Shown one piece after another: positions 37,203 to 59,100 of a stretch of DNA of 59,729 nt. A program made the translations under genes and the position numbers. Within the stretch, counting starts at the first letter, position 1, and each line of letters opens with the position of its first letter. The notes below the pieces were generated by a model. That model saw only the letters and a list, made by a program, of their open reading frames with translations. It was not told where the DNA came from and searched no databases. The stretch is from Bacteroidales bacterium (GTDB lineage: Bacteria > Bacteroidota > Bacteroidia > Bacteroidales > UBA932), in NCBI GenBank assembly GCA_017471965.1, contig JAFURF010000043.1, forward strand, positions 1 through 59,729, in the 5' to 3' direction.

Positions 37203-37217
37203 CCGCCCGAAATAAAA

Positions 37218-37266
37218 GATGTGGAGAGATTTGGCTGCTTGCAACCACTATAAAAAATGCTAAAAT
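37218..37266 (+). promoter_or_regulatory. SAM-II-like riboswitch aptamer in the metK leader
   Basis: An H-type pseudoknot can be drawn. P1 is GTGG (37221-37224) with CCAC (37245-37248). P2 is TTTGGC (37230-37235) in the P1 loop with GCTAAA (37259-37264). The intervening GATTT, GCTTGCAACCAC, TAAAA and TGCTAAAA segments match the conserved blocks of the SAM-II (metA motif) family as I remember it. It starts within about 10 nt of the predicted transcription start and precedes S-adenosylmethionine synthetase, the expected target. An AUG (37265) directly abuts the 3' strand of P2. The class was assigned by eye, without a covariance model. Confidence 0.7.
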
Positions 37267-37276
37267 GTTGACCTAT

Positions 37277-39573: not shown

Positions 39574-40695
39574 ATGGCAAAGAAACCGTTCACCCCCATA
39601 CCTCCGATGGCAGAACTGCCTCCTGCAGAAGAAATTGACGTCAAAGATCTCCTTGACAGATATCTCTCGGGAGAAATCGATCTCATATGCGTCCTCGGGC
39701 CCACTGCCTCAGGAAAGACCCGGTATGCTGTCCGTCTCGCCCGCCAGATCAACACCCTCCTGGCAGAAAGGCGTCAAAACAGCAAGTCCTCCGACCGTCC
39801 GGTTGAGGAAAGCGTGCTACCCCCCTGGCCGCAGGGGGAGGGGCCCACGAAGTGGGAGGGGTTCTTTCCTCAACCGGATGGTCGGAGGACAGCAGGAGCG
39901 GAGATCATCTCTGCAGACTCCCGTCAGGTCTACCGCGGAATGGATATAGGCACAGGCAAGGATCTCTCTGAATATGAAGAGATTCCATATCATCTTATGG
40001 ATATCGTCGACGCCGGTGCCAAATACAACATCTTCGAATACCAGAGAGACTTCGAAAAGGCATACAGAGACATAACCGGACGCGGAGGCATTCCGATCCT
40101 ATGCGGCGGAAGCGGACTATACATCGAAGCCGCCACCTGCGGATACTCCCTGCCGGAAGTGCCGCCTGATCCGCAACTCCGCGCCGAACTCGAAAAGGAA
40201 AGCGACGAAGAACTCATAAACAGACTCGGAGCACTCAAACCGCTGCACAACACCACGGACTACGACACCCGCAAACGCCTCATCCGCGCCCTGGAGATCG
40301 CCATCTACGAATCCGAACACCCGGTCGAGCGCACCGGTTTCCTGCCGAAGAACACATATTATATTGGTACACTTGTCAGCAGAGACGAACGCAACGCCCG
40401 CATAGACCGTCGTCTGGACGCCCGTCTTGAAGAAGGAATGGTGGAAGAAATCCGCGGACTCATAGACGGAACACACCCGGCTCTTGCACCGGAACACAAG
40501 CCAATACCGGCAGAAGACCTTATCTACTACGGACTCGAATACAAATTCGTCACCCTATACGTCACAGGACAACTGACATACGACGAAATGCGCACCGGAC
40601 TCGCCACTGCCATCCATCAGTTCGCCAAAAGACAGATGACATGGTTCCGTGGCATGGAACGCAAAGGCATCACCATCCACTGGACTAACGTCTAG
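39574..40695 (+). CDS. miaA: tRNA dimethylallyltransferase with an in-frame palindromic insertion
   Basis: Adds a dimethylallyl group to A37 of tRNAs reading UNN codons. The P-loop GPTASGKT is at residues 42-49. DSRQVYRGMDIGTGK (115-129), GGSGLYI and the RRLDARLEEGMVEEI and FAKRQMTWFR segments complete the MiaA pattern. ATG 39574 is chosen from the promoter at 39541 and the conserved region. The 373-residue length exceeds the usual ~300-310, partly from a ~35-residue segment (71-106) between the P-loop helix and the GAEIISADSRQ strand. That segment is encoded by a 105-bp palindromic element and has no counterpart in typical MiaA. Active-site motifs remain intact, so the enzyme is probably functional. 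Confidence 0.95.
   Translation: MAKKPFTPIPPMAELPPAEEIDVKDLLDRYLSGEIDLICVLGPTASGKTRYAVRLARQINTLLAERRQNSKSSDRPVEESVLPPWPQGEGPTKWEGFFPQPDGRRTAGAEIISADSRQVYRGMDIGTGKDLSEYEEIPYHLMDIVDAGAKYNIFEYQRDFEKAYRDITGRGGIPILCGGSGLYIEAATCGYSLPEVPPDPQLRAELEKESDEELINRLGALKPLHNTTDYDTRKRLIRALEIAIYESEHPVERTGFLPKNTYYIGTLVSRDERNARIDRRLDARLEEGMVEEIRGLIDGTHPALAPEHKPIPAEDLIYYGLEYKFVTLYVTGQLTYDEMRTGLATAIHQFAKRQMTWFRGMERKGITIHWTNV
39786..39890. repeat. Palindromic element inserted in frame within miaA
   Basis: Arms of 27 bp (39786-39812 and 39864-39890) are complementary at 26 of 27 positions; they begin GTCCTCCGACC and end GGTCGGAGGAC. The interior is C/G-rich and holds two further hairpins, CCCCCTG/CAGGGGG-like (39819-39838) and CCCAC/GTGGG (39844-39856). 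Its length is 105 bp, a multiple of three with no stop codon in the miaA frame. It resembles in behaviour the palindromic elements known inside Rickettsia genes, but I do not recognise it as a named family. Confidence 0.75.
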
Positions 40696-59052: not shown

Positions 59053-59100
59053 TAAAATCACACAGGCACTTTGTCACCGGTACAAAGTGCCTGTGTGATT
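59053..59100 (-). terminator. pgk intrinsic terminator
   Basis: A perfect 19-bp stem with outer ends AATCACACAGG (59056-59066) and CCTGTGTGATT (59090-59100) and a 7-nt loop. On the minus strand it runs into TTTTATTT. Confidence 0.85.

Follow-up and report, generated by a model that had tools for sequence, protein, structure and literature searches.

A palindromic element in Bacteroidales genes with a common core and arms particular to each gene site

The miaA gene in a 59,729-nucleotide stretch of Bacteroidales DNA (the window) carries an in-frame palindromic element whose core is common to genes and species, whereas each gene site has arms of its own. When species are compared at one site, the two arms have diverged by changes that match each other, and a given site can have the core in either orientation, in one case in two genes that are supported sisters. 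We regard the element as a novel variant of the known protein-coding palindromic elements, in which the matching of the arms and the flipping of the core would come about by polymerase template switching at the hairpin; we put the probability of this reading at roughly 60%.

The best-known protein-coding palindromes are those of Rickettsia and Wolbachia. The gut Bacteroidales provide an independent case, with seven gene sites and dozens of genomes, which is enough to follow the evolution of such elements. Here two features that usually go together are separated: the loop is conserved, whereas the stem is free in sequence provided that it is paired. The stems are located in protein linkers, where they have no evident protein reason to stay complementary, and they therefore bear on the question of whether template switching alone yields the covariation that is read as proof of RNA function.

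The palindrome in miaA and its repeated middle

The miaA gene (positions 39574 to 40695, plus strand) is an open frame of 373 amino acids encoding a tRNA dimethylallyltransferase, with the Pfam IPP transferase domain (IPPT; E value, 2e-59) at residues 118 to 360. As described in a first-pass annotation, positions 39786 to 39890 form a 105-bp palindrome, in which a left arm (27 nt; 39786 to 39812) and a right arm (27 nt; 39864 to 39890) are complementary at 26 of 27 positions and enclose a G/C-rich middle of 51 nt (39813 to 39863; here the A core), all on the plus strand. RNA folding placed two nested hairpins within this middle (39821 to 39838 and 39844 to 39856). The left arm is specific to the locus, with an identical arm in the miaA gene of RGIG5188 (L245); the RGIG5188 element has the very arms of the window around an in-frame middle that is shorter by 18 bp and is missing the second nested hairpin. 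The element lies in the linker joining the P-loop helix to the SADSRQ strand, and the reading frame stays open across it, without a stop or frameshift, as had also been noted from the letters alone.

The 117-nt segment from 39780 to 39896 folded as RNA at -80 kcal/mol, compared with -48.7 kcal/mol (SD, 4.2) for 200 shuffled sequences (z = -7.4). When 840,109 bp from 16 genomes were scanned for hairpins with arms of at least 16, at least 90% pairing, and a loop of at most 160, 47 were found, compared with 1 after Markov shuffling; the window alone had 2, compared with 0 in its shuffle. No match was obtained at the element with Rfam at gathering scores. A second palindrome of the window (59056 to 59100), with perfect 19-bp arms and a 7-nt loop, lies outside long reading frames. 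A SAM-II riboswitch is located at 37215 to 37273, at the start of metK (Rfam RF01726, 59.9 bits). The names metK and smpB are presumed from motifs or context.

In other families of the order, the stretch from the P-loop to SRQVY was 31 residues long in all 11 MiaA loci that were readable by pattern among 16 taken. Within the genus, 43 of the 44 rows compared (with duplicate rows for four genomes) gave 32 to 110 residues; the value for the window is 79. The MiaA linker has thus grown within the genus, the element adding 35 of the extra residues, and by the short linkers outside the genus the insert is not ancestral in Bacteroidales MiaA; an ancestral insert was one way in which the first-pass annotation could have failed. 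The other, a single-copy segment with no empty sites, is likewise contradicted, since miaA alleles without the insert are present in the same genus and dispersed copies were found (see below). Among the best 30 miaA loci, 13 of 29 readable linkers reached no hairpin score of 20. Judged from sequence, the insert is probably translated, and MiaA probably tolerates it without benefiting from it.

Several observations concern the same protein or linker. A second MiaA-like protein, 32% identical to the first, is encoded in the window's genome (G000 C34:31378-31980), and a MiaA-like match of ~30% identity was present in 30 of the 41 genomes searched; this second protein might relax the constraint on the first. 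In four relatives (L147 in G350, L150 in G408, L158 in G353, and L166 in G303), this linker of miaA contains another conserved middle, unrelated to the A core but built on the same plan, and the miaA linker of G024 (L027 and L145) has two palindromic inserts in tandem with different arms.

The repeated part of the element is its middle. When the 117 bp around the element were searched against the window's genome, 25 matches were obtained at E values of up to 10: three rows were the element and its self-matching arms, two were short, chance-like matches to arm ends elsewhere in the genome (17 and 20 bp; E values, 1.5 and 2.9), and 20 were other places, centered on the middle, the weakest with an E value of 0.24. 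No further copy of the window's arm was found in the window at up to three mismatches. Many of the dispersed middles, when the loci were read individually, sat within their own, differing inverted repeats, and the middle exists in several versions. The entire palindrome as the repeat unit was therefore rejected, the arms being particular to each site. In a scan with one genome per species, 68 stretches bore the left 25 bases of the core (39813 to 39837 in the window). Dispersed copies in the same genome and in relatives, which had been put forward as a check on the element, are thus present in both. The titles of all 68 records read Bacteroidales bacterium, and 49 name a ruminant host.

These 25 bases were unchanged in 17 of 20 core-bearing alleles of four genes (hutI, 3 of 3; lpxB, 2 of 2; miaA, 8 of 10; and a peptidase, 4 of 5), a figure that is biased because the loci were collected by gene similarity (best 30 for hutI, lpxB, and miaA and all 6 for the peptidase) with queries that included the element. 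A third match in lpxB differed at 7 positions and was set aside as chance. Two gene searches, run with E values that were too strict, covered just 5 and 6 genomes out of 400. The constancy holds across reading frames and orientations. At up to two mismatches, the 25-mer was found in 0 of 294 other genomes across the order (295 drawn, 183 genera; the draw included just one other genome of the window's own genus), and the core is restricted in distribution, with no wide spread in the order. Homogenization of cores within genomes found no support when tested (mean identity of 0.717 for 44 pairs and 0.678 when permuted; 82 of 1,000 permutations were as high).

Other middles were also seen. At least three more families of middles with private arms lie between genes of relatives (L173, L174, L180, L185, L195 to L197, L199, L201, and L206), and two copies of such other middles are found ~1 kb before the miaA element (G042 and G048). 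In the window's genome, shikimate-kinase-like genes (L004/L005 and L017/L018) have two nearby copies of another type of middle; in one of these pairs, close to the end of a contig, the copies are separated by 336 bp and a 119-bp stretch is repeated. In L169 to L186, identity between species switches along a contig from one segment to the next, between ~97% and 75 to 85%, which is a sign of gene exchange.

Gene sites, arms, and orientation of the core

Fifty-eight of the 68 middle-bearing stretches were in frame within long reading frames (at least 160 codons, with at least 30 codons on each side of the middle), at seven gene sites: hutI (12 copies), lpxB (10), an M20 peptidase (10), aroE (9), miaA (8), truB (6), and tilS (3). 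Five others were outside long frames and were taken as intergenic (L228, L234, L266, L268, and L273), and the remaining five were too near the end of the stretch for a frame call. The peptidase site was assigned to Peptidase_M20 by Pfam, and the set may comprise two related genes, as it forms two clades (support, 99). The names hutI, aroE, tilS, and ribF are presumed from motifs or context; among these only the hutI product was scanned with Pfam, which returned only Amidohydrolase.

The genic middles were 33, 51, 54, 57, 60, 90, 96, or 99 bp long, and the length was divisible by 3 in 57 of 58, although shared ancestry leaves far fewer than 58 independent cases behind this count. The lone exception (L235) is a partly deleted copy with a mis-set end. 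The five copies that lie outside long frames measured 55, 56, 55, 54, and 55 bp, and four of these lengths are not divisible by 3. The multiple-of-3 lengths in genes fit selection by translation.

Around 58 of the 68 stretches, a count made separately from that of the 58 in-frame copies, arms of 13 to 32 nt could be read without gaps; in the other 10, bulges lay close to the core or the end of the stretch cut the arm. Arm sequence varied from site to site with near-perfect pairing within each element, and arms from different sites paired at only 0.43. At hutI, with 11 distinct alleles among 12, 98.5% of 264 cells were paired and 21 of 24 pairs had changes on both sides; none of 500 shuffles was as high on any of five measures, and sliding the arm by 1 to 3 columns reduced pairing to 32 to 44%. 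At the M20 peptidase (10 alleles), 91.7% of 240 cells were paired and 20 of 24 pairs had changed on both sides, compared with 38 to 44% pairing for slid arms; none of the 500 shuffles was as high on four of the five measures, and 8 were on the remaining one (further pair types). The alleles are related sequences, and the shuffle counts consequently overstate independence, whereas the slid controls are unaffected. At six of the seven sites, arms of the same allele paired at 0.75 to 0.98, compared with 0.42 to 0.56 when arms of different alleles were combined. The exception was tilS (0.94 and 0.89, respectively), with three near-identical alleles. The lowest value, 0.75, belongs to miaA and is due to bulges.

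Both orientations of the core were found at five of the seven sites: hutI (7 forward and 5 reverse), lpxB (4 and 6), the M20 peptidase (2 and 8), aroE (5 and 4), and truB (2 and 4). The core was forward in all 7 miaA copies counted and reverse in all 3 tilS copies. The minimum number of orientation changes was 4 for hutI, 2 for lpxB, 2 for the M20 peptidase, and 3 for aroE, on quick trees of the gene without the element that have several weak forks and, for lpxB, one row that is a short fragment. Two hutI genes (L221 and L285) are sisters (support, 99) with arms that are 88% alike and middles in opposite orientations. When likeness was measured on the outer 16 of 22 bases, 24 of 231 same-site pairs had left arms at least 70% alike, compared with 8 of 1,365 other-site pairs, and the middle was reversed in 10 of those 24.

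Possible origins of the arms and of the turned cores

In the reading that we favor, a long stem would present a short G/C-rich core in its loop, and the whole would lie in frame within a MiaA linker that tolerates it. A polymerase that switches templates at this hairpin would copy one arm onto the other, by which the arms stay matched, and the same switching could reverse the loop and thereby flip the core, such that one process would account for both the matched arms and the turned middles. We infer that the element is old and tolerated and that arm matching and core flipping are products of such switching. However, flipped spacers are 2 to 5 bp in yeast and mostly 4 nt, up to 7 to 8 nt, in rRNA loops, as far as the available parts of the sources describe them, compared with 51 bp here. 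Template switching also leaves unexplained why the left 25 bases of the core are identical between species, and at miaA itself no reversed core is seen and the arms pair less well than elsewhere.

The main rival, improbable as we judge it, is a functional hairpin in mRNA or DNA, with selection keeping the stem paired and a bound protein keeping the core constant. Such selection would fit the strong covariation at hutI and the M20 peptidase and the identity of the 25-mer across four genes despite the divergence of the arms. However, the genes are unrelated, many relatives do without the hairpin (as in the 13 miaA linkers mentioned above), other middles occupy the same sites in other species, and the core is reversed between sister genes; this turning and these absences are not easily explained by selection for the hairpin.

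We also consider, as a doubtful alternative, a mobile hairpin consisting of the core alone that builds its own arms: a snap-back copy of the target flank on arrival would give each copy a private, matched stem, and the element would then persist in genes as a self-correcting and flipping structure, with the same machinery preserving the core sequence. In five pairs of filled and empty alleles, the left arm matched in G357/G372 (P < 0.0005), G392/G203 (P = 0.015), and G408/G315 (P = 0.0095; flanks 96 to 98% identical) and was unmatched in the window versus G007 (P = 0.08) and in ribF (P = 0.14); because the pairs were chosen after inspection, these P values are too kind, and two fail a 10-test correction. 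The right arm was matched in none of the five. Among the nine of 11 lpxB alleles that could be oriented, the arm of L239 spans the Gly-Leu codons of the GLVRHYK motif, which is common in the genus, and the left arm therefore holds a reverse copy of seemingly native coding sequence. However, the snap-back origin is weakened by the test of all 104 pairs of miaA alleles (8 filled by 13 empty), in which flank copying reached P < 0.05 for 6 left and 7 right arms, about as expected by chance. Flank copying is thus possible, with single cases in its support and none for the window's own arms. Two further candidates were rejected: the right arm of ribF as native sequence, which failed when tested, and the G048 hairpin in lpxB as a newly made inverted copy, which is more likely a decayed element since its outer arms match those of L239. 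At one polymorphic intergenic site, a GGCA target-site duplication was hinted at by eye only.

It is similarly unlikely that a mobile core homes into pre-existing hairpins, the arms being old palindromes of the site. Core-less hairpins do occur at the same linkers (miaA of G021 and G345 and lpxB of G048), and both orientations of the core are found; however, some core-less hairpins resemble decayed copies, namely, the G315 loop, which keeps the left end of the core, and the G048 hairpin, and the miaA linkers without a scoring hairpin count against an old palindrome at the site. Independent insertions, in either direction, into one stem are a possible source of the two orientations in their own right.

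An ordinary RPE or MITE, of which the whole palindrome including the arms is the mobile repeat, is highly improbable: the length, the in-frame genic insertion, and the dispersed copies are RPE-like by the available text of PMC2229807 and PMC3767692, but it is the core that is common to the sites, and the arms differ. Still less credible is an intragenic inversion switch in which a dedicated recombinase varies the linker: inverted arms that flank an invertible and frame-preserving core speak for it, but by eye the arms have no recombination site in common across gene sites beyond about six inner bases. Removal of the segment from the RNA or its skipping by the ribosome, leaving a normal protein, can be practically dismissed, as the hairpin is unusually stable for a coding region but genic cores with lengths in multiples of 3 (partly co-inherited) and open frames are what is expected if the segment is translated.

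Comparison with known systems

Polymerase template switching, the process that we favor here, homogenizes the arms of inverted repeats and inverts their spacers in yeast coding DNA (PMC8604942) and creates and mends stems (PMC8794818), according to the available portions of both articles. The Bacteroidales elements resemble these hairpins, known from yeast coding DNA and from rRNA and microRNA stems, in the matched multibase changes of the arms and in the inversion of the spacer. They differ in having a conserved core of 33 to 99 bp that is found in several genes; in those portions, repeats that undergo switching have short spacers of a few bases, and no common core is described. In mitochondrial genes of Nematomorpha, long perfect inverted repeats are kept inside translated genes (PMC6649704); as far as the accessible part of that article goes, both arms there code for conserved protein, whereas here the arms lie in a variable linker around a common core.

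Like REP and REPIN sequences, these are short palindromes scattered over a genome. REP stems are conserved in sequence. Y1-type frames of ~300 amino acids were found in 11 of the 16 genomes of the genus searched, and the A core (up to five substitutions) was absent from eight Y1 neighborhoods (2.2 to 4.5 kb each, from five genomes), one of which has another core family (F1) downstream. Two Y1-transposase-like genes (L300 and L301) have near-identical short hairpins on both sides, as expected for RAYT/REP. MITEs differ from the present elements in their conserved terminal inverted repeats, the arms here varying by site. No earlier report of such elements in Bacteroidales or Bacteroidetes was recognized in the accessible parts of the literature searched, and the available text of the MITE review PMC10969869 contains no word beginning with Bacteroid; the claim to newness is based wholly on that negative search and on the review.

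There is a likeness in kind, as the first-pass annotation had proposed, to the RPE of Rickettsia. RPE arms are conserved in sequence. In the available parts of PMC3767692 and PMC2229807, RPEs are described as hairpin-forming sequences of about 105 to 150 bp that lie in frame in conserved genes and also between genes, that tend to occupy the same site in orthologues, and that have terminal inverted repeats and are recognized through family sequence models. The elements described here share with RPEs and with the Wolbachia palindromic elements their length, their hairpin, and their placement both in frame in genes and in intergenic regions, and the annotation was right in expecting a dispersed, in-frame palindrome; its anatomy has to be revised, the repeat being the middle and not the 105 bp. 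In this other phylum only the loop is common, the arms are site specific and covary, and the core flips. The element is thus RPE-like as a coding palindrome, yet it is not filed as an RPE because its terminal repeats differ between sites.
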